Assembly (NCBI GenBank): GCA_029780075.1
Contig: JAKOZI010000085.1
Span: 1 to 64,000 of the forward strand
Reading direction: 5' to 3'
DNA: 64,000 bases
From: Pseudomonadota bacterium
GTDB taxonomy: Bacteria > Pseudomonadota > Gammaproteobacteria > Burkholderiales > Rhodocyclaceae
The translations under genes were made by a program, and so were the position numbers. The notes below the pieces were generated by a model that saw nothing but the letters and a program-made list of their open reading frames with translations, was not told where the DNA came from and did no database searches. The first letter of the stretch is position 1. Each line of letters begins with the position of its first letter. Shown piece after piece: positions 1,648 to 21,898 of this stretch.

Positions 1648-3933
1648 ATGCATGATTTCTCTTCCCGTCAGACTGCTGCAATGATCCTTGCCATGACCCT
1701 GGCCAGTCCGCTATCCAGTTTCGGAGCGGAGGCGCCGGCCAGGGTGACCATTGATCTGACCAGCGGACCGATCAACACCTTTGTGCCTGCGGTTGCGCTT
1801 GGTGCCGGGGTCGATGGGCACTCGCGCGGTGATGCGGCGGCCATCTACCGACCGACGAACCTGCGCGCCATGCGTTCGGTCGGCCTGCGCCCACTCAGCT
1901 ATCGTCTGCGTACCGAGTTGGGCGTCGAGGCCTGGCACTGGAATCCACGCGGCAAATGGAGCGACAGCGAGCGCGCGCAAGGCTACTGGACTTCAGACGA
2001 CCAACCCGGCGCGCCGATTCTGGCGTCGTTTGGCTACCGCTTGCCGCGCCGCGGAAACACCGTCGACCAGGCTGAAGACAATGGTTACTCGCGACTGGCC
2101 GACGGCGATCTGAACACCTTCTGGAAGAGCAACCCCTATCTGGACCGCAGCTTCACTGGTGAGGACAACAGCCGCCATCCACAGTGGCTGATCGTCGATC
2201 TCGGAAAGAAGATGCCGGTGGACGCGATGCGCATCGCCTGGGGAATGCCGTATGCCGTGCGCTATCAGGTGCAGTATTGGGATGGCGAAGACGCTGCCCT
2301 CCCGGACGAGTATCCGAGCGGGCACTGGCAGACTTTCCCCGAGGGAGAGGTCAGACAGGGTAGTGGTGGCGATGAAAATCTGCGATTGGCCCGGCACGCG
2401 GTGGCGGTGCGCTATCTGCGTGTTCTGCTGGAAGTCTCGTCCGGCAGCCCTGCGCCAGGTGCGCACGATGCGCGTGACGCACTGGGCTACGCGGTGCGCG
2501 AGGTCTATGTGGGGGTGCTCGACGCGAACGACCGGTTGCACGATGCCGTACGACACGCCGCCAGCCACGACGGCCAGACGCGGATGTTTGTGTCGTCGAC
2601 CGACCCCTGGCATCGCGCCGAGGATCTCGACCCGGAGGTGGAGCAGGCCGGCATCGACCGCGTGTTCACCAGCGGGCTTGGCCACGGTCTGCCGATGCTG
2701 GTTCCGGTCGGCGTGCTGTACGACACCCCGGACAACGCCGCTGCGTTCCTGCGCTACCTGCGGCGACGCGCTTATCCGATTCGCGGTGTCGAGTTGGGCG
2801 AGGAACCGGATGGCCAGTACGTGGCTCCGGAAGACTATGGCGCCCTCTACCTGCAGGTGAGCGATGCTTTGCGCGCGGTCGATCCGGACGTGATCCTCGG
2901 GGGGCCGTCTTTCCAGTCCTTGTGGGATGCACCGATGATGGCCTGGTCCGGGACCTCGGTCGCCCCCGACCGACCGTGGCTGGCCCGACTGCTCGACTAT
3001 CTGCGCGTGCGGGAGCGCGCCGCCGACCTCGGTTTTCTGTCTTTCGAATGGTATCCCTTCGACGAGGTGTGTACGCCGCCCGCGGAACAGTTGCGGCAAG
3101 CGCCGGGATTACTGGCGGAGGCGATGGCGGAGATTTACCGACAGGGCCTGCCTCGCGGCACGCCGCTACTGATGACCGAGTACGGTTACTCGGCCTTCTC
3201 GACGCAGACCGCAGTTGATCTGCCCGGCGCGCTGTTCAATGCTGACGTCGTTGGGACATTCCTGACCGAGGGCGGTGCCGTCGCCTATCTGTACGGCTAT
3301 GAACCCGGCCCCCTGGACAAGGGGCCGGATTGCGACACCTGGGGTACGAACACCCTGTTCCTGTCCGACCAGCGGCGAAAGATTCTGGCGCGCACCGCCA
3401 CCTATCACGGCGCCAGGTTGCTGGCGCGTCAATGGGCGGGAAGCCCGACGCAAGCCCACGCGGTCTATCGCACCCGGGTCGATGATGAAGCGGTGGGCGA
3501 CGTTTCGCCGGTGAGCGCCTATGCGCTGCGGCGTCCTGATGGCTTGTGGTCGGTACTGCTGGTGAATAAGGATCCGCAACGGCAAAGGACCGTTGCGCTG
3601 CACTTCTCCGGTCCCGAGGCGAACGCGCTCACCCCGCTGCAGGGCTCGGCGGATCTGTACCAGTTCTCGGCCGCCCAGTATCGGTGGCGGGCCAATGGGG
3701 CGTTCGGGCGCCCGCAGCGCAGTCTCCCGCCGCAATACCGCCTGCTGCCTGGCCATCAGGCGCCGCTGCATCTGCGGTTGCCGCCGTGGTCCCTGACCGT
3801 AGTCCGCAGCCGGGCGCCGCAAGCCGGACAGCCGAACCCGACCGCGCACCCCGGCCGAGCGCATGCCAACCCTCAGCGGCGAACACTGGCTGTCAGCAGG
3901 CAAGGAACTCATCATGTCGCAGCAGCGTCCTGA
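1648..3933 (+). CDS. Secreted protein with F5/8 type C (discoidin-like) segment and glycoside hydrolase-like TIM-barrel segment
   Basis: Signal-peptide-like N-terminus; NGYSRLADGDLNTFWKSNPY...HPQWLIVDLGKKMPVDAMRIAWG (discoidin-like); later ...RGVELGEEPDGQYVAPEDYGALYLQVSDALRAVDPDVILGGPS... and LLMTEYGYS glycosidase-like motifs. Confidence 0.6.
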   Translation: MHDFSSRQTAAMILAMTLASPLSSFGAEAPARVTIDLTSGPINTFVPAVALGAGVDGHSRGDAAAIYRPTNLRAMRSVGLRPLSYRLRTELGVEAWHWNPRGKWSDSERAQGYWTSDDQPGAPILASFGYRLPRRGNTVDQAEDNGYSRLADGDLNTFWKSNPYLDRSFTGEDNSRHPQWLIVDLGKKMPVDAMRIAWGMPYAVRYQVQYWDGEDAALPDEYPSGHWQTFPEGEVRQGSGGDENLRLARHAVAVRYLRVLLEVSSGSPAPGAHDARDALGYAVREVYVGVLDANDRLHDAVRHAASHDGQTRMFVSSTDPWHRAEDLDPEVEQAGIDRVFTSGLGHGLPMLVPVGVLYDTPDNAAAFLRYLRRRAYPIRGVELGEEPDGQYVAPEDYGALYLQVSDALRAVDPDVILGGPSFQSLWDAPMMAWSGTSVAPDRPWLARLLDYLRVRERAADLGFLSFEWYPFDEVCTPPAEQLRQAPGLLAEAMAEIYRQGLPRGTPLLMTEYGYSAFSTQTAVDLPGALFNADVVGTFLTEGGAVAYLYGYEPGPLDKGPDCDTWGTNTLFLSDQRRKILARTATYHGARLLARQWAGSPTQAHAVYRTRVDDEAVGDVSPVSAYALRRPDGLWSVLLVNKDPQRQRTVALHFSGPEANALTPLQGSADLYQFSAAQYRWRANGAFGRPQRSLPPQYRLLPGHQAPLHLRLPPWSLTVVRSRAPQAGQPNPTAHPGRAHANPQRRTLAVSRQGTHHVAAAS

Positions 3934-6900
3934 CGATTGCCCACCCAGCCGGGCGGTAAGCCTGCGCGCCGACAAACCGGTCTTCTTCGATCCGGCCAGC
4001 AAGCGCTGGCCGCGCCTGCGGCTGGGAATGACGCTGATTGGCCTGACCGTGTCATTATTGCTGGGCGCGCTGGTACTGAGCATCCTCGCCAGTCCGGTGC
4101 TCCCGGCGCTGAATCTGTCGGGGGTGAGCTTTCTGCCGCAAGGCGCACATGCCTTGCCAGCCGTGCCTGCGCTGGCTCCCGAGCGTCCACTCACCCGTCG
4201 CGAGCGCGCCCTCCGTAATGACCAGCACAGATTGGCGAGCGAGCGCGCGCGCGAGCTGAAACAATTGTTGCAGTTGCGTAAGGCGGGCCCGGTTGCCCGT
4301 CGTCAGGCTCTGGCGATCGGGTTCTTTGTCAACTGGGACGACTCCAGCATGAGTTCTCTCAAGGAAAACCTGGGCAGTCTGGACATGGTGATCGCCGAAT
4401 GGCTGCATCTGGCAGCCGAGGATGGATCGCTGCGGGAGAACGATCCGACGCGAACCGCACAGGTGACCGAATACGTCCGTGCCCGTCGCCCCGAGGTGTC
4501 GATCGTGCCCCTGGTCAACAACTGGAACGGGCACGACTGGGAGGGTGCCAAGTTGGCGCGCATGTTGGCCAAGCCGGCAGCGCGGGCGCGGACCATCGAA
4601 CAATTGGTCGACTATGTGGAGCGAAACCGCTTTGCCGGCATCAGTATCGACTTCGAAAACGTGTCGACCAAGGCCCAGCCTGATTTCCAGCGTTTCATGG
4701 CGGAACTGTACGCCGCCATGCACCCGAAAAACCTGCTGGTCTCGGTCAATGTTCCGGCCAGTGACCCGGCCTTTGATTACCGCCGCCTGGTGCGTAGTGC
4801 CGATTACCTGATTCTGATGGCCTACGACGAACATTGGGCGACCAGCGCGCCCGGTCCGATCGCCAGTTTGCCGTGGTTCGCCAGCGTGCTGCGGCAGCGG
4901 CAGCGCGACATACCCGCCGAGAAGATGATCGTGGCCATCGGCAATTACGCCTATGACTGGCAATCAGGCCAGCCCGCCGAGGAGCGAACCTTCGAGGAGG
5001 CGGTGCTGGTGGCCAAGGAGTCGGAAGGCAAAATCAGGCTGGATCCGGCTTCCCTGAACCCGACTTTCGCTTATGCCGACGACAACGACCGCATTCACCA
5101 CGTGTGGATGCTCGACGCCGTGACCGCCTTCAACCAGTTGCTGGCAATCCGTAGCCTGCAGCCGCGCGGCGTCGCCCTGTGGCGGCTGGGCAGCGAGGAT
5201 CCGGCGTTGTGGCAGATCTTCGGCAAGGACACCCCCCTCGATGCGGTGCGCGCCGCGGAGCTCGGCAACATCCGCTTTGCCTACGGCGTGGACTATGAAG
5301 GCAAGGGCGAGATCCTTGAAGTGACGGCAAAACCACAGACCGGCAGTCGGATCATCGAATTCGACGCCAAGCGCGGGCTGATCAGCTCCGAGCGGTTCAC
5401 GGCTTTCCCTTCGCCCTACGTCATCACCCGTCACGGCGGCGCGGAGCGCAAGGTTGTGTTGACCTTTGACGATGGTCCCGATCTTCAATACACCCCGCAG
5501 GTGCTGGATGCCTTGCGCCTGGCGGGAGTGCCGGCGGCCTTTTTCATCATGGGCGTGAATGGTCAGATGCATCCGGAGCTGCTGCGCCGCATGCTCGACG
5601 AAGGCCACGAAATCGGCAATCACACCTTCACGCACCCCAATATTTCGACCATCTCGCCGCTGCAGTTCCAGCTCGAACTCTCGGCGACCCAGCATCTGCT
5701 GGCCAGCGTGGTCGGCCGGCATTCACTGCTGTTCCGCCCACCCTACGCGGTAGACGCCGAGCCGGAGACCATCGACCAGGTGCGCCCCATCGAACTGGCC
5801 GCCGAGCAGGGTTATCTCGTGGTCGGCATGCAGATCGATCCGGATGACTGGAAACGCCCGGGGGTCGCCGAGATCGTTCGGCGTACCGTCGAGCAGGCGG
5901 AGCGCGGTGAAGGCAACATCGTGCTGTTGCATGATTCCGGCGGTGATCGCAGCCAGACGGTGCAGGCGATCCCCCGCATCGTCGAGGAATTGCGGCGACG
6001 GGGCTTCCAGTTCGTCAGCGTTTCCGAGCTGCTCGGGCGCAGCCGCGACGCGGTGATGCCGCCGGTGCCCCCGGAAACCCGCTGGCGGATCTGGCTGGAC
6101 GGTGCCGCTTTCGGGGTGCTCAACTGGTCGGCCGCGACGGTCCATTGGTTATTCCTGCTGGGCATCGTGCTGGGCATTGCACGTTTGTTGTTTGTCGGCG
6201 CGCTGGCCATTTACCAGCGTTGGCAGCAGCGTCGCGAGGTCTTCGATCCGGAATATTCGCCAACGGTGGCCCTGGTGATCCCGGCCTACAACGAGGAAAA
6301 GGTGATCGTACAGACCATTGCCTCGCTGCTCGCTTGCGAGACGCCCCGGAAGCTCGAGATCATCGTCGTTGATGACGGTTCCAGCGATGCCACCTATCGT
6401 GTGGCGCGCGAGGCTTTTGCTGGCGACCCGCGCGTGCGGGTGTACTCGGTGGTCAATGGCGGCAAGCCGGCGGCGCTCAACTTCGGGATGGCGCAGTCCG
6501 ATGCCGAGATCGTGGTGGCCCTCGATGCCGACACGGTGTTTACCCGTGACACAATTGTCAAACTGGTCAGGCATTTCGTCGATCCAAAGATCGGCGCGGT
6601 CGCCGGCAACACCAAGGTCGGCAACCGGATCAACCTGCTGACCCGCTGGCAGGCGCTCGAGTACATCACCAGCCAGAACCTGGACCGGCGGGCCTTCGAC
6701 GTTCTCAACTGCATTACCGTGGTCCCCGGCGCCGTGGGCGCCTGGCGGCGAGAACTGATCGAGCGGGTCGGCGGCTTCACCGACCTGACCCTGGCCGAGG
6801 ACGCCGATCTGACCCTGGCGATCCGCAAGCTGGGCTACTCGATTGTCTATGAGGACGAGGCGGTGGCCCTCACCGAGGCGCCCGATACCGTGCGCGGCTT

Positions 6901-9459: not shown

Positions 9460-9629
9460 CGGTGGGTTTCGCGGCAGGATAAGCGGCGGATCTTACCCCC
9501 AAGCCGGCGCGCGCGGGTTTCCGTTGCCAGAGCCACGCGTCGGCCAGGTGACGCGTACCGCTCTCGATCGCGTTAGACTGTGCGCTTCGCCAATTACAGG
9601 CCGGCATTCAGCCGCGCCAGGCCGACGCC

Positions 9630-10262
9630 ATGGATTTCCCGATCAAACCGCTGGTCACGCTGCTGGCGATCGTCAACCCGATTGGCGTGATTCCCTTCTT
9701 TATTCATTTCACGCGCAATTTCAGCCTTGAGCAAAGGCAGAGAACGGTCCGCGTCGCGTCATTTACCGCCTTTGTCGTCATCGCGGTCAGTGCCCTGGCT
9801 GGCCTGCGGGTGCTGGAGTTCTTCAGTATCTCGCTGGCGTCATTTCAGGTCGGCGGCGGCTCGCTGTTGCTGATCAGTGCCATGCACATGCTCAACGCGC
9901 AACCCGCCGAGTCGCGGGCGCAGGACGTCGACGAGGGCGCCAGTCGCGCCGATTCCGGTGCGAGCATTGCCGTGGTGCCGCTGACCATTCCGCTGCTGAC
10001 CGGCCCGGCTTCGATATCGACGGTGGTGATCTACGCTGAAAAAGCCCGCCACTTCTGGGAACTCGGGGTGCTCGTCGGCTATGGCCTGGTGATCGGTATG
10101 GCGACCTGGCTGGCGCTGTCGGCGGCCGGTCGCATTGGCAGGTTCATGGGTCAGACCGGGATCAACGTCATGACCCGACTGATGGGCCTGATCCTGGCGG
10201 CCATCGCCGTCGAAGTGATGGCCGACGGGCTGATCAAGCTGTTTCCGGTACTTGGGCGCTGA
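9630..10262 (+). CDS. MarC family (UPF0056) integral membrane protein
   Basis: KPLVTLLAIVNPIGVIPFFIHFTRNFS...VPLTIPLLTGPASISTVV...NVMTRLMGLILAAIAVEVMADGL. Confidence 0.9.
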   Translation: MDFPIKPLVTLLAIVNPIGVIPFFIHFTRNFSLEQRQRTVRVASFTAFVVIAVSALAGLRVLEFFSISLASFQVGGGSLLLISAMHMLNAQPAESRAQDVDEGASRADSGASIAVVPLTIPLLTGPASISTVVIYAEKARHFWELGVLVGYGLVIGMATWLALSAAGRIGRFMGQTGINVMTRLMGLILAAIAVEVMADGLIKLFPVLGR

Positions 10263-10388: not shown

Positions 10389-13300
10389 ATGTCGCCTGTC
10401 CGCTCACTCTGGCTGTGGCTGGCCTTGCGCTTCGTGCTGGCGGGGATGCTGCCGCTGTTGCTCGTAGCCGTGATTTTGTCATGGGTATTGCTGCCGCAGG
10501 TTCTCGCAGACATTGAGACACGTCACCAGGCCTTGGCGCGTGCCGTTTCCGGTCAGGTCGAGGGGCACCTGCGCAGTGCCGGGCGGGAGTTGTCCGCGGT
10601 CGCCGAGTATCTCCGGCATCGAGGTGATCAGCCGGCTCCGTTCAGGTTCGAGCCGATCCTCGATGCGCATGCCGGCAGTGGCGAAGTCTTCACAGCGATC
10701 TACATCGCTGATGCGGCGAATGTGGTGCATGCGCTTGGACTGCCTCAGGGGGAGCGCCAGCAACGTGGGGATCGGATCGATATCGACCTTTCGCGCTGGA
10801 CCGTCGTACGCGAGGCGCGGCAACGACGAGCGCCCGTGTGGTCGGAGATCGTCGAATCCGCGGTCAGCAGCCGGCGGGTGGTCAGCCTGGCCATTCCGCT
10901 GAATGATCAGGTGCTGATCGGCGAAGTCGCGATTGACCGGCTCTCGGAGTTCCTGGGCAGCCTGCCCACCGAAGCCGACATGTGGACCATGATCCTCGAT
11001 CGCCGGGGGCAGGTGGTTGCTCACTCGCAAGCCAGCCTTGACGGCCTGCACGCCAACCTTGGGTCTCTGCCGATCGTTGCCGACGCGCTGCCGGGACGTA
11101 TTGCAACGCATGACCTCGCCATGGGCGGGGAAAAGCTCATCGCGACGCTGGTCAGCGTGCCGCAACTCGGCTGGACGGTTCTCGTCGCACAACCCCGCAG
11201 GGACGCGCTGAAGCCGTTTGTGTCCACCCTGTGGGCCCTCGCTGTCGCCGCTCTGGTGGCGCTGCTATTGGCGACGATAGCCACGCTGTTGCTGGCGCGT
11301 CGGGTTGCGCAGCGCATCGGTCGTTACACGGCGCAGACGCACGCCATCGCCGAGGGCGACTACGAGCAGCGCTGGCCGATTTCGCGGATCAGGGAATTCG
11401 ACGAGCTGGCTGAGGATCTCGATCGCATGTCGCTCGCCATTCGTCAGCGCGAGCGCCAACTGGCGACCAGTGAGGCGCGCTACCGGTCGGTGGTCAGCAA
11501 TGCCCCGGTGGTGATCTTTCAATTCGATGAAATGGGAGTCTTCCACTTCAGCGAAGGCAAGGGCGTAGCGGGTGCGGGTTTCGAGCCGGGCCAGGCAATG
11601 GGCCAGTCGCTGTTCACACTCTACGGTCAGTATCCGGAGATCTGCGCGCATGCGCGTCGGGCGATCGATGGCGAGACGCTGCAGTTTGTCTCCCGGATCG
11701 GCGACACTTATTTCGACACCCATTTCAATTCCGTTCGGGCGGATGACGGCACGGTGCAGGTGATCGGCGTTGCGTTGGACATTACCGAGCGCATTCGCGC
11801 CGAAGAAGCGTTGCGGGCCAGTGAAGCTCGCTTCCGTGATCTCTCGGCAATGGCTTCGGACTGGTTCTGGGAGCAGGACGAGCAGTTCCGGTTCACCTAC
11901 TTCTCTTACGGCGGGGCCATGTCCACTCTGGCGGAAAGCGGTTTTGATCATCACCAGATGATCGGCAAGACGCGCTGGGAATTGCCCGTCCACCTGACGG
12001 CCGCGGAATGGGAGGCGCACCGGGCAGTGCTTGACGCGCATCAACCCTTTCGCGATCTGGAGTATCGGATCGGTTCGGCGACCGGCGGGGATCGCTGGTT
12101 CAACGTCAACGGCCAGCCGTTGTTCGACACTGCCGGATGTTTTGCCGGCTATCGTGGCACGGCGCGCGACGTCACCGGGCGCAGGCAGGCAGATCAGGCC
12201 TTGCAGGAAAGCGAGGCGCGCTACCGACTGCTCTTCGACAGCAATCCGCACCCGATGTGGGTATACGATCTGCAGACGCTGACCTTCCTGACAATCAACG
12301 ACGCGGCTGTCGCCAGCTATGGCTATTCCCGCGATGAATTTCTGAGTATGCGAATCACCGATCTCAGCTCCGACGAGGATACCCCGCTACTGGTCGAGGA
12401 CATCGTCGCGGTCGAAGAGAGCACCGACTACTCGGGGTTCTGGCGACATCGCCGGAAAGACGGCACGACCATCGACGTTGACACCATCTCGCATGCACTC
12501 TCGTTCGAGGGGCACCAGGCGGTATTGGTCCTGGCCGATGACATTACCGAGCGCAGGCGCGCAGAGCAGGCCTTGCTGGAGAGCGAGCGCAAGTACCGCG
12601 AACTCGTGGAGAACGCCAACAGCATCATCCTGCGCTGGAACCCGGCGGGCCAGATCACCTTCATCAACGAATTCGGCCTCAAGTTCTTTGGCTATGCCGA
12701 GGAGGAACTGCTGGGTCGGCACGTGGTCGGTACCATCGTTCCGCTCACCGGCAGCAACGGCCGGGACATGCGTCCGTTGATGGAAACCATCTGTCTCAAT
12801 CCGCAGGCGTTTGAACACAACACCAACCAGAACATGCGTCGCGATGGCGAGCGGGTCTGGGTATCCTGGACCAACAGGGCAGTCTTCGATGCGAATGGCC
12901 AGGTCGTCGAGGTGTTCAGCGTCGGTTCGGACATCACCGAGCGCAAGCGGGTCGAGGACGAACTGCAGCGGCACCGGGAACACCTCGAAGAACTGGTGAG
13001 CGAACGCACCTCAGAGTTGCGGCAGGCGATGGCACAACTGGTTCAGACCGAAAAGCTGGCCGCACTGGGCAATCTGGTTGCCGGTGTGGCGCACGAACTG
13101 AACACCCCGCTGGGCAACAGTCGCGTCGTCGCCAGCCTGTTGGGAGAGCAGTTGCGCAACTTCGCCGAGGCTGTCGAATCGGGGAGCCTGCGCCGCTCGC
13201 AGTTGGAGGGCTTCCTCAACCGTGGTCGCGAAGCGGTCGATCTGCTGGAGCGCAACAGTGCCCGCGCTGCCGACCTCATCGGCCACTTCAAGCAGGTGGC

Positions 13301-13808
13301 GGTGGATCAGAGCAGCGCCCGACGCCGCGTCTTCGACCTGCGCCAGACCGTGGAGGAGATGTTGGTCACCTTGCGGCCGACCTTCAAGCGCAGCCAGCAT
13401 CGAATCGAAGTGGACATTCCGCTCGGCTTGCTGATGGACAGCTACCCGGGGCCGCTCGAACAAGTCATTGCGAACCTGATCGCCAACGCTCTGGCCCACG
13501 GGCTGGCGGCGGTCGAGCACGGCTGCATCGAGTTGCATGCCCATACTGAAGACCAGACTCAGATAGTCCTGCGTTGTGCAGACAACGGGGTGGGGATCGC
13601 CACGGCTACGGCCCACCGCATCTTCGAACCGTTTTTCACCACGCGTCTGGGGCAGGGCGGCAGTGGGCTGGGGTTGTACATCGTCTACAACCTGGTGACC
13701 AGCGTGCTTGGCGGAAGCATCGTGGTCGACAGTTCCCCGGGTCACGGTGCATGCTTCACGCTGAACTTGCCGCGCGCTGCGCCGAACCGGGCAACGTCAG
13801 TTCCCTGA
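10389..13808 (+). CDS. Multi-PAS sensor histidine kinase (periplasmic sensor, HAMP, several PAS, HisKA-like, HATPase)
   Basis: Two TMs, HAMP-like segment, repeated PAS ends (DITERxRAEEAL), AALGNLVAGVAHELNTPLGNSRVV H-box variant, ADNGVGIATATAHRIFEPFFTTRLGQGGSGLGLYIV. Confidence 0.92.
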   Translation: MSPVRSLWLWLALRFVLAGMLPLLLVAVILSWVLLPQVLADIETRHQALARAVSGQVEGHLRSAGRELSAVAEYLRHRGDQPAPFRFEPILDAHAGSGEVFTAIYIADAANVVHALGLPQGERQQRGDRIDIDLSRWTVVREARQRRAPVWSEIVESAVSSRRVVSLAIPLNDQVLIGEVAIDRLSEFLGSLPTEADMWTMILDRRGQVVAHSQASLDGLHANLGSLPIVADALPGRIATHDLAMGGEKLIATLVSVPQLGWTVLVAQPRRDALKPFVSTLWALAVAALVALLLATIATLLLARRVAQRIGRYTAQTHAIAEGDYEQRWPISRIREFDELAEDLDRMSLAIRQRERQLATSEARYRSVVSNAPVVIFQFDEMGVFHFSEGKGVAGAGFEPGQAMGQSLFTLYGQYPEICAHARRAIDGETLQFVSRIGDTYFDTHFNSVRADDGTVQVIGVALDITERIRAEEALRASEARFRDLSAMASDWFWEQDEQFRFTYFSYGGAMSTLAESGFDHHQMIGKTRWELPVHLTAAEWEAHRAVLDAHQPFRDLEYRIGSATGGDRWFNVNGQPLFDTAGCFAGYRGTARDVTGRRQADQALQESEARYRLLFDSNPHPMWVYDLQTLTFLTINDAAVASYGYSRDEFLSMRITDLSSDEDTPLLVEDIVAVEESTDYSGFWRHRRKDGTTIDVDTISHALSFEGHQAVLVLADDITERRRAEQALLESERKYRELVENANSIILRWNPAGQITFINEFGLKFFGYAEEELLGRHVVGTIVPLTGSNGRDMRPLMETICLNPQAFEHNTNQNMRRDGERVWVSWTNRAVFDANGQVVEVFSVGSDITERKRVEDELQRHREHLEELVSERTSELRQAMAQLVQTEKLAALGNLVAGVAHELNTPLGNSRVVASLLGEQLRNFAEAVESGSLRRSQLEGFLNRGREAVDLLERNSARAADLIGHFKQVAVDQSSARRRVFDLRQTVEEMLVTLRPTFKRSQHRIEVDIPLGLLMDSYPGPLEQVIANLIANALAHGLAAVEHGCIELHAHTEDQTQIVLRCADNGVGIATATAHRIFEPFFTTRLGQGGSGLGLYIVYNLVTSVLGGSIVVDSSPGHGACFTLNLPRAAPNRATSVP

Positions 13809-15168: not shown

Positions 15169-15435
15169 GTAAGGCTTTCTCGAAGTCAGGCGAAAGACAA
15201 TCTCCCACGGCGACCGGGTCTGGTGCCGAACCTTTGGGGCACCATTGCCGGTTCGCTCGGGACGCGTGCGGCGAATCCGCTCGTGGAGCAGCAAGACCAG
15301 GCAGTGTTTTCGATTGAGGCAGTATCATGGCGATCGTCGGTAGGCCGTCTGAAAGTTAGCAACGACCAGCATGCTAGTACAAAGTGCGCCGCTCGGCGAA
15401 GAACATGAAGCCGGTTTTACAATGGAGTACTGGCA

Positions 15436-17709
15436 TTGCGTGCAGGCGAAGAAGCCATTCTCAGAGATATCGTGCTGGTCGGCGGCGGACACAGCCACGT
15501 CGGGGTACTCAGGCAGTTCGGCAGGCGGCCGCTGCCCGGCGTACGCCTGACGGTAATCTGTACGGATACGCACACTCCCTATTCGGGGATGTTGCCCGGC
15601 TATATCGCAGGACACTACAGCTACGACCAGGTGCATATCGACCTGCGCAGGCTGGCGATGTTTGCCGGTGCCCGATTTTTTCGCGACGAGGTGGTCGGCC
15701 TGGATCGGGAGCGGCGCAGAGTCTTGTGTCGCGATCGACCACCACTGTCTTATGATCTCCTGTCGATCAACATCGGCTCGACACCCCGGCTGGACGGTGT
15801 TGCCGGCGCCGCCGAGGAGGTGCTGCCGGTCAAGCCGATCCGCCGCTTCAACGAACGTTGGCTGGCATTGTTGCAGCGGGTCTGCGGACATCCTGGAGGA
15901 ACCACCATTGCCGTGGTCGGTGCGGGTGCCGGCGGCGTCGAACTGACGCTGGCGATGCAGTATCGCCTGCGCCGGGAACTGCAGGCGCTGGGGCGCGGCC
16001 CCGACGAACTGCGCCTGCATCTGTTCTCCGCGGACCGCGAGATCCTGAGTACACACAATGCACGCGTGCGGCGTACTTTCGAGCGCGTCCTGGCCGAGCG
16101 CGGAGTCGTCGTGCATCGCCATGCCGAAGTCAGCTCGGTGTCGCACCTGCAGCTTGCGACACGCAGCGGCGAGTACCTGTCTGCCGACGAAATCATCTGG
16201 GTGACCCAGGCCGGTGGCGCCGGCTGGCTGCGCGATACGGGTTTGTCGTTGGACAGCGGCGGTTTCATCCTGGTGAGCGACACCTTGCAGACGGTCAGCG
16301 ATCCACTGGTCTTTGCCGCCGGCGATTGTGCGGCGATGATCGACGTGCCACTGGAAAAAGCCGGCGTCTTTGCGGTCCGGCAGGGGCGACCACTGGCCGA
16401 GAACCTGCGTCGATCGCTGATGGCCATGCCCTTGCGCCGCTATCGCCCACAAGCTCGCTGGCTGGCGCTGATCAGTACCGGTGACCGCCGCGCGGTGGCT
16501 TCACGCGGTGCGGTGTGTGCCGAGGGCGCCTGGGTGTGGCGTTGGAAAGATCGCATCGACCGTCGCTTCATGGCTGGATTTCAGGATCTGCCGCCAATCG
16601 ACGAGCCAGCGGCGCCACTGATGCCAGCGATCTCCCTCGACGCCAGTGAAACTGCGCAGGCGCGCGCGGCGGCTGCGATCCGCTGCGGTGACGTCGCGCC
16701 GGTCGCGGCCACACTGCTGCGACAGGTGGTCAGGATGCTGCGCGCGCACAACTGCGGCGAGGTGTGGCTCGGTCTGGAGGATGGCGAGCACGCGGCCATC
16801 TTGCAGGTGCCGCCGGGCAAGGCCATGGTGCAGACCCTGGCCTCCTGCGGCGCGTTCATCGACGATCCCTGGTTGTTCGCGCGCATTGCGGCGAATGATG
16901 CGCTCGACGACATTTTCGTGCTGGGTGCCGAAGCATATTCGGCAAGCATTGTCGCGACACTGCCGGCAGGCCTTGATGATAAGGTCGAAGACACACTGTT
17001 CCAGCTCCTGTCCGGAGCCGCCGAGGTGTTCACTGGCACCGACTGCGTGCTGGCCGGCGCGCGTGCCGTATGGGGTCCGGAACTGGCCCTTGGCTTTGCC
17101 GTGAACGGCCTGATCGGTGCGCAACTCACCGGCGTGATGGGCAAGGGCAGCATGCGGCCAGGCGAGGTGTTGATCCTGAACAAGCCGATTGGCAGCGCGA
17201 CCCTGCTCGCTGCGCATCGCCGTCTGCGGGCCACGGGCCGCTGGATCGATGCGGCGCTGCGATCGATGCTCCAGTCCAACCGGCTGGCAGCCAGCTGTCT
17301 GAACACCTACGCCGCCAGTGCCTGCACCAGGATCAGCGCTCTTGGTCTGCATGGCCAGTTGCTCGCGATGACCCGCCGTGCGGGCGTGGCTGTCGAACTT
17401 GATCTGAACGCCTTGCCGGTTCTCGTTGGCGCTGCAGAGACTGCTGCTCTGGGTTTCCCGAGCCGGCGGCCAGCGGACAGGTCGTGCACGAGCCGCACTC
17501 CAAGCGCGTCTGATCCTGCTTGCCGTCACCCGAAGCATGCGTTGTTGTTCGATCCGGAAACGTCAGGAGGGCTGCTGGCCAGCGTACCTCCAGAGACTGC
17601 AGAGGCGTGTCTGCAGGCGCTGCGCGCTCTCGGTTACCCTCGGGCCACCAGCGTGGGGCGGGTGTTGCCGGCCGGCCAGGGTCCCGAGCCGATCCTGCTC
17701 AAGCTGTAA
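15436..17709 (+). CDS. Fusion of NDH-like FAD/NAD(P) oxidoreductase and SelD-like (selenide, water dikinase) domain
   Basis: N-half: IVLVGGGHSHVGVLRQFG...HTPYSGMLPGYIAGHYS...VFAAGDCAAM. C-half: SelD/AIRS-like ...LFARIAANDALDDIFVLGAEAYSASIVATLP...LALGFAVNGLIGAQL...LFDPETSGGLLASVP. TTG start. Catalytic SelD motifs degenerate. Confidence 0.88.
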   Translation: MRAGEEAILRDIVLVGGGHSHVGVLRQFGRRPLPGVRLTVICTDTHTPYSGMLPGYIAGHYSYDQVHIDLRRLAMFAGARFFRDEVVGLDRERRRVLCRDRPPLSYDLLSINIGSTPRLDGVAGAAEEVLPVKPIRRFNERWLALLQRVCGHPGGTTIAVVGAGAGGVELTLAMQYRLRRELQALGRGPDELRLHLFSADREILSTHNARVRRTFERVLAERGVVVHRHAEVSSVSHLQLATRSGEYLSADEIIWVTQAGGAGWLRDTGLSLDSGGFILVSDTLQTVSDPLVFAAGDCAAMIDVPLEKAGVFAVRQGRPLAENLRRSLMAMPLRRYRPQARWLALISTGDRRAVASRGAVCAEGAWVWRWKDRIDRRFMAGFQDLPPIDEPAAPLMPAISLDASETAQARAAAAIRCGDVAPVAATLLRQVVRMLRAHNCGEVWLGLEDGEHAAILQVPPGKAMVQTLASCGAFIDDPWLFARIAANDALDDIFVLGAEAYSASIVATLPAGLDDKVEDTLFQLLSGAAEVFTGTDCVLAGARAVWGPELALGFAVNGLIGAQLTGVMGKGSMRPGEVLILNKPIGSATLLAAHRRLRATGRWIDAALRSMLQSNRLAASCLNTYAASACTRISALGLHGQLLAMTRRAGVAVELDLNALPVLVGAAETAALGFPSRRPADRSCTSRTPSASDPACRHPKHALLFDPETSGGLLASVPPETAEACLQALRALGYPRATSVGRVLPAGQGPEPILLKL

Positions 17710-17766: not shown

Positions 17767-17899
17767 CTGAGGAATGCGACGACGTTTCCCTGCTGTTCTT
17801 GCCGGACACGCTTTCTGCTAAGCTTCCGGGGAACAGGTCGTGGCGATTCGGGAGTTGCGCCCGCGCAGCCCTGTACCGCAACCCTCTGATGGCCGCCCC

Positions 17900-20467
17900 A
17901 TGTTCGACAACTTGCGAAAGTATGCCGCCGCCTACGCTGTGGCGATCGGTGGAGTTCTCCTGACCTGCCTGTCGTCATGGAACGTACGGCAGGAACTGCA
18001 GACCAGCCACTTCAAGGAGTTCCAGTGGGCAGCCGGTGACCGCATCCAGTCTGTGCGAGCGGTGGTCGACCAGGGCCTGGACGCACTGCTGGAAATTCGG
18101 GGCCTGTTCTACGCGGCGCAGGGAGTCGACGAAAGGGAGTTCCTGGTTTTTACCGATTCGATTCTCAAACGCCGCCCGTATATCGACAGTCTTTTCTGGG
18201 CGCCGCTGCTGACCTCGCCGCGGCAAGCCCTGCCTGGATCGGCACCCGGCAGCATGGCGCGGGCGGCGCCGGTTGCAGGCCAGGCGGAGGCTGCCGGCAC
18301 GTTGCGGGTGCCAGTACTGCTTTCCGCATCGCGTTCGGGAACCGGTCTTGCGCGGGGTGTCGATCTGAACGCGATGCCCGAACTGGCCGCGCTGTTCCAT
18401 AAGGCAAGAGCGAGCGGCAACGTCGCGGTCAGCGGACGCATGGAAATGGCACGACCGGGAAGGGAATCGGCGTTTGTCATCTATGCGGCACTGCCCGTCT
18501 ATGCGCCGGGCGCCACGGGCACTGCCGGAACAACGAAATACCGGGAACCGCTGGGATTCGTGATTGGTGTGTACGACATCGAAGAACTGGTGCATGTGGC
18601 CATCAGCCTGCTTGAGCCGCGCGGCGTCGAAGTACTGGTGCGTGACGATTCGGCGGCCGGTGATGCGCAGTTCCTCCACTTCTACGCCAGCCGCCTGGAG
18701 CCACGCGCTGCGGCAACGGCTAGCGGTCTGATGCCGGAGGGCGACGAGGATCAGCCGCGGATGGTGGTCAGGATTCCCGTCGGCGATCGTAGCTGGACGG
18801 TGACCTGCGTGGCAACCCATACCTTTCGCAGTGCCGAAGTCTTTACCAAGGCCCACTGGTCGGTGCTTCTGGGAGGTATCCTGTTCACGGCGCTGCTCAC
18901 CTTCTACCTGGTGCGCAGTCGCCGCGAGCTGGAAAATCGGATCCAGTTGACGCAGACCATCTACGAGCGCGAAGAGCTGTTTCGCCAGTTGGCGGAAACG
19001 GTCGACGTCGTTTTCTGGGCGACCAACGCTGCTGCGACGCGGCTCGAGTACATCGGCCCGGCGTTTCGCCAGATCGCCGGGCGCGAGGCCAGGCTCGATG
19101 GCGCCGCGCCTTCCCTGATGCTCGACGTCTTCGAAGCCGACGACCGACGCAACCTGATTGCGGCCATCGGCCAGTTGCAGACTGAAGGTGTACGTTTTAC
19201 CGTCGTGCTGCCGGTGGCACGTGCCAGCCAGGGGGTGCGCTGGCTGCGCGTCTGCGGTTTCCCGGTGCGCGAGCCGGGTTGCGAGCTGAGCCGCATCGTT
19301 GGTTTTCTTGAGGACATTACCGATCACAAGCTGGCCGAAGATGCGCTACGCGACTCCGAAGCCAAGTTGCGTACCCTGTTCAACCATTCGCCAGACCTGA
19401 TCTTTACCGTCGATGGCGAGGCCAATATCCTGCTCACCAACCGACCCTTGCCGTATCCTGTCGGCGGCGCCGGCGAAAAGCGATCGGAGCTGATTCTCCC
19501 GCCTGATGTGCGCGGTGGTTACCTGCATAAGCTGCGTCAGGTTTTCGAGAGTGGACGCATCGAGCATTTTCAGTACCGGTCGAGCGACGCCACCTGGTGG
19601 GAAATCCGGATGGTGCCGATCAGTTCGGCGAAGGCGGTAATGGCCGCGATGGTGGTGATTACCGACATCACCGAGAACCGCAAGCTGCAATGGCAGGCCA
19701 TCCGCAGCGCGCGTCTGGCCTCGCTCGGGGTGCTGTCGGCCGGCATCGCGCACGAGATCAACAACCCGAATCACGCCATTCTGGCGAATGCCTCGCTGTT
19801 GACGCGGATCTGGCAGGATGCCTTGCCGATACTCAACGAGTACGAGCACGAGCAGGGCAGCTTCGTGCTTGCCGGCCTGGGCTTCGAGCGGGCACGGCAA
19901 ACCATCGCACGCGGTATGAGCGACATTGGCGAGAACGCCAAACGTATTCAGAAGATCGTCGATAACCTCAAGCACCTGGGCAAGCAGGATCGTGGGCACA
20001 TGGACGAACTGGCCGACGTCGGGAAAATCCTCAATGCCGTGGTGACACTGCTCGATACCCGCATTCACAAACACACCGACGCCTTTTCGCTGGAGTTGCC
20101 GGCGGCGCTGCCGCTGGTCAAGGGCAACGTGCAGCAACTGGAGCAGGTATTCATCAACGTCATCGTCAATGCCCTGGAGTCGTTGCCGGACCGCAGCCGG
20201 TCGGTCAAGGTTTCGGCAAGGGCGGAGACCGCCAGCGGCCGGATCGTCGTGCAGGTCGAGGATCAGGGAAAAGGGATCGCCGAGGACGTCATGGCGCAGA
20301 TCGGCGAACCCTTCTTCACCACCAAGGCGGAAAGCGGTGGCACCGGACTGGGCCTGTCGATTTCGTCGTCGATCGTCGAGAGGCACGGTGGAATATTGCG
20401 CTTCGAGTCGAACAACAATCCCGGCACCACGGTGAGCATAGACCTGCCGGTGAGCACGGAGGAGTGA
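17900..20467 (+). CDS. CHASE/PAS-type sensor histidine kinase
   Basis: MFDNLRKYAAAYAVAIGGVLLTCLSSW...; ALLEIRGLFYAAQGVDEREF CHASE-like; PAS; LASLGVLSAGIAHEINNPNHAILANASLL; VQVEDQGKGI...GEPFFTTKAESGGTGLGLSIS. Confidence 0.92.
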   Translation: MFDNLRKYAAAYAVAIGGVLLTCLSSWNVRQELQTSHFKEFQWAAGDRIQSVRAVVDQGLDALLEIRGLFYAAQGVDEREFLVFTDSILKRRPYIDSLFWAPLLTSPRQALPGSAPGSMARAAPVAGQAEAAGTLRVPVLLSASRSGTGLARGVDLNAMPELAALFHKARASGNVAVSGRMEMARPGRESAFVIYAALPVYAPGATGTAGTTKYREPLGFVIGVYDIEELVHVAISLLEPRGVEVLVRDDSAAGDAQFLHFYASRLEPRAAATASGLMPEGDEDQPRMVVRIPVGDRSWTVTCVATHTFRSAEVFTKAHWSVLLGGILFTALLTFYLVRSRRELENRIQLTQTIYEREELFRQLAETVDVVFWATNAAATRLEYIGPAFRQIAGREARLDGAAPSLMLDVFEADDRRNLIAAIGQLQTEGVRFTVVLPVARASQGVRWLRVCGFPVREPGCELSRIVGFLEDITDHKLAEDALRDSEAKLRTLFNHSPDLIFTVDGEANILLTNRPLPYPVGGAGEKRSELILPPDVRGGYLHKLRQVFESGRIEHFQYRSSDATWWEIRMVPISSAKAVMAAMVVITDITENRKLQWQAIRSARLASLGVLSAGIAHEINNPNHAILANASLLTRIWQDALPILNEYEHEQGSFVLAGLGFERARQTIARGMSDIGENAKRIQKIVDNLKHLGKQDRGHMDELADVGKILNAVVTLLDTRIHKHTDAFSLELPAALPLVKGNVQQLEQVFINVIVNALESLPDRSRSVKVSARAETASGRIVVQVEDQGKGIAEDVMAQIGEPFFTTKAESGGTGLGLSISSSIVERHGGILRFESNNNPGTTVSIDLPVSTEE

Positions 20468-21898
20468 ATGAAAGAGAAGTCGTTTGCCAGCCTTCCCGTT
20501 TTTCTTGTCGATGATGAGGAGTCGGTCCTGCATGCCACAGCCGCGGTACTGCACAGCGCCGGGGTGGCCAACATCCAGATGGTGGGCGATAGCCGCGACC
20601 TGTTGCCGGCACTCGAGCGGCAGCAGGCCAGCGCGGTGCTCCTGGATCTCTTCATGCCGCACATCACCGGCAACAAACTGCTGCCGGACATCGTCCATCT
20701 CTATCCGGAGGTACCGGTGATCGTCATGACGGCTGCCCAGGATGTCGAAACCGCCGTCCGCAGCATGAAGGAGGGGGCCTTCGATTATCTCGTCAAGCCG
20801 GTTGAAGAAAGCCGGCTGGTAGCCAGCGTTCGGCACGCGCTCGAGGTCCATTCGTTGCGGCGACAGATGGGCGTGCTGAAACATTATCTGCTCTCCGACT
20901 GCCTGCAGAACAACGAGGCCTTTGCCGGCATCGTCACCAACAGCCGCAAGATGCGGGCGCTGTTCCAGTACCTCGAAGCGGTGGCCGTCTCCGCCGAGCC
21001 GGTGCTGATCTCCGGCGAGACGGGCGCCGGCAAGGAAATGTTCGCGCACGCCCTGCACAAACTCAGCGGCCTGACCGGACAGTTCGTGCAGGTCAATGTC
21101 GCCGGGCTCGACGACACCCTTTTTTCGGACACCCTGTTCGGTCACAAGAAGGGGGCCTTCACCGGCGCCGATCAGTCGCGCGCTGGTTTGATTGCCCAGG
21201 CCGGCGGCGGCACCTTGTTCCTGGACGAAATCGGCGACCTGTCGATGGCCTCGCAGGTCAAACTGCTGCGCCTGCTCCAGGAACACATGTATTTTCCGCT
21301 GGGCTCCGATGTCGCCCGCCCCAGCGATGCGCGCGTGGTCTGCGCGACCAACTGCAATCTGGCGCAGATGATGCGGCAGAGTCAGTTTCGCTCCGACCTA
21401 TTCTTCCGTCTCTCGGTGCACCAGATCGAAGTGCCGCCGCTACGCCAGCACAAGGAGGATATCCCGCTGCTGCTGCAACACTTTCTCGACGAGGCCGCGG
21501 CGTCGATCGGCAAGCCGGCTCCCGAACCTTCGAACGAACTGATCACGCTGCTCTCGAACTATCATTTTCCCGGCAATGTTCGCGAGCTGCGGGCGATGGT
21601 GTTCAACGCCATGGCCCTGCATCGGGGAGGGGCGGTACTGGCCATGGACAGTTTCCGTCAGGCCATCCAGAAGCAGCAGAAGGCGACTGCGGATTACCCG
21701 GCGGCAGAGCCCTCCGACGGGCTGCCAGTGGTCATCCCGGGACGCTTTCCGACACTCGACGAAGTGGAAGAGGCGCTGGTCATGGAGGCCCTCAAGCGGG
21801 CAAAGGGCAATCAGGGCGTTGCCGCAACGCTGCTTGGACTGTCGCGTCCAGCACTCAACCGACGCCTGGCGCGTCGAGCCATGCATTCGGAGCCCTGA
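20468..21898 (+). CDS. Sigma-54-dependent response regulator (NtrC family)
   Basis: Receiver VFLVDDEESVLHATAAVL...VLLDLFMPHITGNKL; AAA+ ISGETGAGKEMFAHALH, GAFTGADQ, GGTLFLDEIGDLS, FRSDLFFRLSVHQIEVPPLRQHKEDIPLL; C-terminal Fis-like HTH. Confidence 0.95.
   Translation: MKEKSFASLPVFLVDDEESVLHATAAVLHSAGVANIQMVGDSRDLLPALERQQASAVLLDLFMPHITGNKLLPDIVHLYPEVPVIVMTAAQDVETAVRSMKEGAFDYLVKPVEESRLVASVRHALEVHSLRRQMGVLKHYLLSDCLQNNEAFAGIVTNSRKMRALFQYLEAVAVSAEPVLISGETGAGKEMFAHALHKLSGLTGQFVQVNVAGLDDTLFSDTLFGHKKGAFTGADQSRAGLIAQAGGGTLFLDEIGDLSMASQVKLLRLLQEHMYFPLGSDVARPSDARVVCATNCNLAQMMRQSQFRSDLFFRLSVHQIEVPPLRQHKEDIPLLLQHFLDEAAASIGKPAPEPSNELITLLSNYHFPGNVRELRAMVFNAMALHRGGAVLAMDSFRQAIQKQQKATADYPAAEPSDGLPVVIPGRFPTLDEVEEALVMEALKRAKGNQGVAATLLGLSRPALNRRLARRAMHSEP

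Follow-up and report, generated by a model that had tools for sequence, protein, structure and literature searches.

An NDH-SelD fusion of Candidatus Accumulibacter with a relaxed, probably inactive SelD half

Background

NDH-SelD fusions are widespread. Among fusions of SelD, that with NDH is the most frequent by a wide margin, and it was predicted to keep selenophosphate synthesis (PMC4561486); a CxxC motif was reported in all fused SelD sequences then known (PMC2398784). What becomes of such a protein when the active site of its SelD half is lost? The question is raised by a locus in a 64,000-nucleotide stretch of DNA from the genus Candidatus Accumulibacter (hereafter, the window). An earlier note, made from the letters of the window, described there an intact fusion gene with several active-site losses in its SelD half, and proposed that this half had been repurposed rather than randomly decayed. 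We report here a computational analysis of the gene, of its relatives in 28 genomes of the genus and of the selection acting on its two halves.

Results and discussion

The fusion gene and its active site

The single uninterrupted frame announced in the earlier note is present, with no stop or frameshift. The gene and its parts are as follows.

15424..15427, + strand: GGAG, Shine-Dalgarno-like, 8 bases 5' of the start codon, from direct sequence reading
15436..17709, + strand: NDH-SelD fusion gene, 757 aa, with matches to TIGR03169 and TIGR00476 and a TTG start that aligns to ATG in relatives
15436..16590, + strand: FAD/NAD(P)-binding half (type II NADH dehydrogenase / pyridine nucleotide-disulfide oxidoreductase-like), with 129 of 130 invariant columns retained and an omega of 0.09-0.11, equal to background
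16636..17706, + strand: degenerate SelD half (predicted AIRS fold), with a TIGR00476 match, 94 of 147 invariant columns retained and an omega of 0.32-0.38 versus 0.08

In hmmscan searches, the N-terminal half scores 495 bits against TIGR03169 (cut-off 310; residues 11-382) and the C-terminal half 170 bits against the selD profile TIGR00476 (cut-off 125). In the PDB, the FAD half is related to NDH-2-like flavoproteins, and its description as well kept is justified by the invariant columns. In domain order, length, FAD half and predicted SelD fold, the window protein is like other NDH-SelD fusions; unlike them, it lacks the CxxC motif and five of six catalytic residues.

We compared the SelD half with 88 intact homologues, numbering residues after E. 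coli SelD (chain 3u0o). The six E. coli positions C17, K20, D51, D68, D91 and D227, which we take to be catalytic and metal-binding sites from established SelD structures, align as follows.

16693..16695, + strand: Cys17 position, Val420; catalytic Cys lost and the next Gly codon (G18) deleted
16699..16701, + strand: Lys20 position, Pro422; lost
16789..16791, + strand: Asp51 position, His452; metal Asp lost
16840..16842, + strand: Asp68 position, Ala469; metal Asp lost
16909..16911, + strand: Asp91 position, Asp492; metal Asp kept
17329..17331, + strand: Asp227 position, Arg632; metal Asp lost

Each motif loss that had been read from the letters is confirmed by this alignment: the Cys and Lys of the RCGGCGAKV-type motif, the Asp pair of DDAAV (D50D51 replaced by E451H452), the Asp of the TTDFF-type motif, the GGHT/S motif (G139H140 replaced by A542R543) and the Asp of TDVTGFGLLGH. 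The RCGGC of fused SelD proteins reads RCGDV here, and neither the Cys/Sec17 nor the Lys20 of TIGR00476-type SelD is found. One correction concerns the metal Asps, of which three of four are lost and D91 is kept; the retained D492 sits in 'ANDALDDIF', a segment that the earlier note had counted as fold-type. In the best 80 named homologues, a list ordered by similarity and hence no unbiased survey, the motifs are kept throughout, barring isolated single-motif pattern misses. C17 is the selenide-binding residue, and the E. coli Cys17Ser variant is catalytically inactive, with about 12% of ATPase activity remaining (PMC3956282). Judging from these replacements, the SelD half of this genuine NDH-SelD fusion has probably lost the ability to synthesise selenophosphate. 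A TIGR00476 match above cut-off is no proof of selenophosphate synthesis.

The AlphaFold model of the C-terminal half (pLDDT 81, pTM 0.81) has E. coli SelD 3u0o as its top PDB match and is least confident around the loop that once held Cys17 and in the DDAAV segment; the full-length model reaches a pTM of 0.85, with the lowest confidence at residues 414-460. Since the input alignment was made of intact homologues, the models indicate compatibility with an AIRS-like fold and not stability.

Selection on the two halves

Selection was estimated with a custom branch codon model (GY94 type, F3x4, fixed topology), whose values are to be read with synonymous sites near saturation on some branches, an uncertain topology around the window copy and limited optimiser iterations. 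With the halves modelled separately, the window SelD half has an omega of 0.318 versus a background of 0.083, and both omega = 1 (2dlnL 12.1) and omega = background (2dlnL 21.2) are rejected; the FAD half shows no difference (0.108 versus 0.100). A joint model in which the synonymous rates of the halves are tied gives the SelD half an omega of 0.375 (0.335 with another topology) versus 0.082, rejects omega = 1 (2dlnL 25.3) and omega = background (2dlnL 68.8), and places the FAD half at 0.093 versus 0.105. Selection on the window SelD half is relaxed, not absent, and the FAD half is under full purifying selection. The dN/dS near 1 that would betray neutral evolution of the C-terminal half is rejected in favor of values of about 0.3-0.4, an average that might mix a constrained period with a later, short neutral one. 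For two other degenerate copies in the genus, L022 and L024, omega of the SelD half is 1.05 on the stem and 0.19 and 0.28 on the tips, where omega = 1 is rejected for both (2dlnL 132); some constraint therefore persisted after the loss.

We also compared the degenerate copies with neutral simulations matched for identity. In the window copy, they leave an expected 3.5-4.2 of the six catalytic residues, against the one observed (P 0.01-0.06). When the five degenerate copies are pooled, 16-20 of 30 catalytic cells are expected and four observed; whichever of five starting sequences is used, such a deficit has a probability below 1 in 300. The test is somewhat biased in that copies were classed as degenerate by motif loss. 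A simple Fisher test agrees (p = 2e-7) but is confounded by codon degeneracy, so that the simulation is what counts. Loss of catalytic residues faster than neutral decay predicts is thus supported. In the same identity-matched setting, HMM scores do not consistently separate real from neutral sequences, and the severity of accepted substitutions is near neutral. In a follow-up decided on once the first result was known, which left out the motif columns, the window z ranges from -0.1 to 4.8 depending on the starting sequence. Two to three stops would be expected in the window copy under neutral decay and none is observed; stop-free runs make up 5-17% of simulations. The argument from five open frames is weakened by survivorship, as copies with stops would count as truncated.

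Intact, degenerate and missing SelD halves in one genus

The fused SelD half is intact in 12 of the 28 Accumulibacter genomes (one with a frame break near the N terminus), early-degenerate in one (L019, genome G024), and degenerate but in frame in five (the window, L020, L022, L024 and L025). Eight genomes, probably nine, keep the FAD half without SelD; in the ninth (G020), contig ends split the gene. A search of one of the 28 (G016) yielded no copy of the fusion gene at all. In L019, the motifs read GGC-AKV (one Gly of GGCGAK deleted), DDVAV and GLGLLD. No new motif common to the degenerate copies was noticed when the alignment was read by eye.

Synteny at the window locus is anchored by two downstream genes.

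17840..20467, + strand: CHASE/PAS histidine kinase, syntenic in G005, G017 and G019
20468..21898, + strand: sigma-54-dependent response regulator (AtoC/NtrC type), syntenic and 91-92% identical in G005, G017 and G019

This synteny rules out paralogy in place of orthology. Across the four species, the SelD half at this locus is intact in one (G005, Accumulibacter sp. SCELSE-7, whose NDH-SelD fusion is the syntenic orthologue of the window gene), dead in two (the window and G017) and cleanly excised in the fourth (G019), whose protein terminates in ...ADLPAKTWPA, with the kinase gene next in line. That the same half is intact in one relative and excised in another indicates that, over the long term, the dead half can be dispensed with. 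From the clean loss in L026 and the FAD-only copy L027 it follows that those relatives do not need a folded SelD half. The degenerate L020 (G007; region L159) shares its flanking genes on one side with intact members of the L007-L009 clade and so also looks like degeneration in place.

On the other side of the window fusion from the CHASE kinase lies a Cache/PAS histidine kinase (10389-13808). The placement of the fusion between two histidine kinases, the second of them followed directly by the sigma-54 regulator (kinase and regulator together 17840-21898), is common to four species of the genus. Comparison of neighboring genes gave no functional clue.

How many times was the SelD half lost? 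The FAD-half tree pairs L020 as sister with an intact copy and groups L022 and L024 with an intact copy from another genus. A single ancient origin of all five degenerate copies was rejected (AU p = 6e-7); holding the window, L025 and L020 together was not (AU p = 0.063). The C-half tree unites all degenerate copies; as the FAD-half tree disagrees, we attributed that union to long-branch attraction and did not rely on it. From the AU tests and the FAD-half tree, at least two origins are secure, and three or four are likely.

Selenium genes in the genome and genus

Besides the fusion, the genome that contains the window carries a standalone, canonical selD (GGGCGCK, DDAAV, TTDFF, GGHT, TDVTGFGLLGH), one of the genes that the earlier note had proposed to look for, together with mnmH (selU). 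Another gene on that list, selA, was not found: it exceeded the cut-off in none of the 28 genus genomes, that of the window included, in searches where an E. coli control worked. Standalone SelD matches occur in all 28 genomes; of 12 such loci that were read, 11 show the full set of canonical motifs, and the twelfth lacks part of its N-terminal end. mnmH exceeds the cut-off in 25 of 28 genomes. With a separate selD, mnmH and no selA, the fused SelD appears redundant: selenophosphate is presumably needed for tRNA selenouridine and would be supplied by the standalone enzyme. In the more distant genomes G039 and G052, where the fusion is the only SelD found, the fused SelD half is intact. The genome with the early-degenerate L019 (G024) is one where mnmH was not found.

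What the degenerate half may be

The reading that we consider best, and rather likely to be right, is that of a SelD domain that is catalytically dead and under relaxed selection, whose frame and, in part, fold are still maintained on a working flavoprotein, and which is dispensable in the long term. The standalone SelD, as the supplier of selenophosphate for tRNA selenouridine, would have freed the fused domain from catalytic constraint, leaving the flavoprotein half as the presumed working part of the fusion. A dead domain in frame would still have to reach a fold that leaves the flavoprotein unharmed, and it may still bring about its dimerisation; eventually, a deletion ending near the inter-domain linker may remove it, as in the syntenic relative. 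Such a structural appendage accounts for the data with fewer assumptions than repurposing does.

Plain pseudogenisation, in which selection on the SelD half ended recently and the frame survives by luck, would agree with the roughly fourfold rise in average omega, the near-neutral severity of substitutions and the absence of the SelD half from eight or nine relatives. Remnants of broken SelD C termini are also found at other loci. We nevertheless hold it to be rather unlikely, as omega = 1 is rejected both on the window branch and on the L022 and L024 tips, neutrality does not predict the preferential loss of catalytic positions, and all five copies are open, subject to the survivorship noted above. 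A still active SelD with a rewired active site seems very improbable: D91 is kept, as the fold seems to be, and the TIGR00476 score is above cut-off, but C17, K20, D51, D68 and D227 are all replaced, and the E. coli Cys17Ser variant is inactive (PMC3956282).

There remains repurposing, which the earlier note had proposed. In this reading, the dead SelD domain would have come under selection for another task, be it ligand sensing, partner binding or scaffolding, in the manner of animal SPS1/SEPHS1. Catalytic loss without frame damage, and by something other than plain neutral decay, is supported: the frame is open, omega is 0.3-0.4 on the window branch and catalytic residues were lost preferentially. 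In favor of a new role itself are the retention in frame, the omega below 1 after catalysis was lost in the L022/L024 pair, the same preferential loss and the two-component neighborhood conserved at the syntenic locus. Precedents exist in SPS1, a SelD without Cys/Sec that can have another function (PMC4561486), and in the SEPHS1-QRICH1 complex (PDB 9hjt). Against it stand the clean excision of the SelD half at the same syntenic locus in a relative, substitution severity near neutral and the lack of any new common motif noticed by eye; multiple losses within one genus that has a standalone SelD in every genome fit relaxation better. The earlier interpretation is thus supported in part. We regard repurposing as decidedly unlikely for the window protein. 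The wider idea, with the same SPS1 parallel, that the fused SelD of Accumulibacter repeatedly became a non-catalytic domain (regulatory, dimerising or ligand-binding) serving the flavoprotein independently of selenophosphate made in cis, strikes us as unlikely too, if by a shade less.

Relation to known families

SPS1/SEPHS1 of animals resembles the window protein in combining a SelD fold, predicted in our case, with the loss of the catalytic Cys/Sec, and in having an active paralogue alongside. It differs in being defined by replacement at the Cys/Sec site and in having a demonstrated selected function, whereas the window protein has also lost metal Asps and is fused to a flavoprotein. Closer to our case by name is TIGR04369, 'oxidoreductase/SelD-related fusion protein' ('fusion_not_SelD'), with which curators already designate such fusions as not SelD. 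Membership of the window protein was rejected on its hmmscan score of 338 bits (cut-off 700); the protein is unlike that family, being a recent derivative of intact beta-proteobacterial fusions. No member of TIGR04369 over cut-off was found in 229 genomes from the class or in 399 from the phylum, and our literature search returned no mention of the family and nothing relevant on selenium in Accumulibacter. The existence of dead-SelD fusions is thus already hinted at by TIGR04369; the series within one genus and the repeated origin seem, from the literature searched, to be new.

The case illustrates how one domain of a fused enzyme can be inactivated and, at times, lost. The genus offers natural separations, with syntenic orthologues whose SelD half is intact, dead or missing and a standalone SelD throughout, so that whether the NDH half works for selenium only in cis becomes directly testable.

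Two further kinds of relatives were encountered. At unrelated loci lie two short pieces of a fused SelD C terminus of the intact type with broken frames (L177, G022:C58 ~9621-9821, + strand; L176, G023:C104 ~3790-4019, - strand); they represent genuine pseudogene decay, unlike the in-frame degenerate copies. An older clade of stand-alone FAD halves (L030-L035) occupies a different locus in six Accumulibacter genomes, and in these proteins the invariant Cys42 is replaced by Ser.
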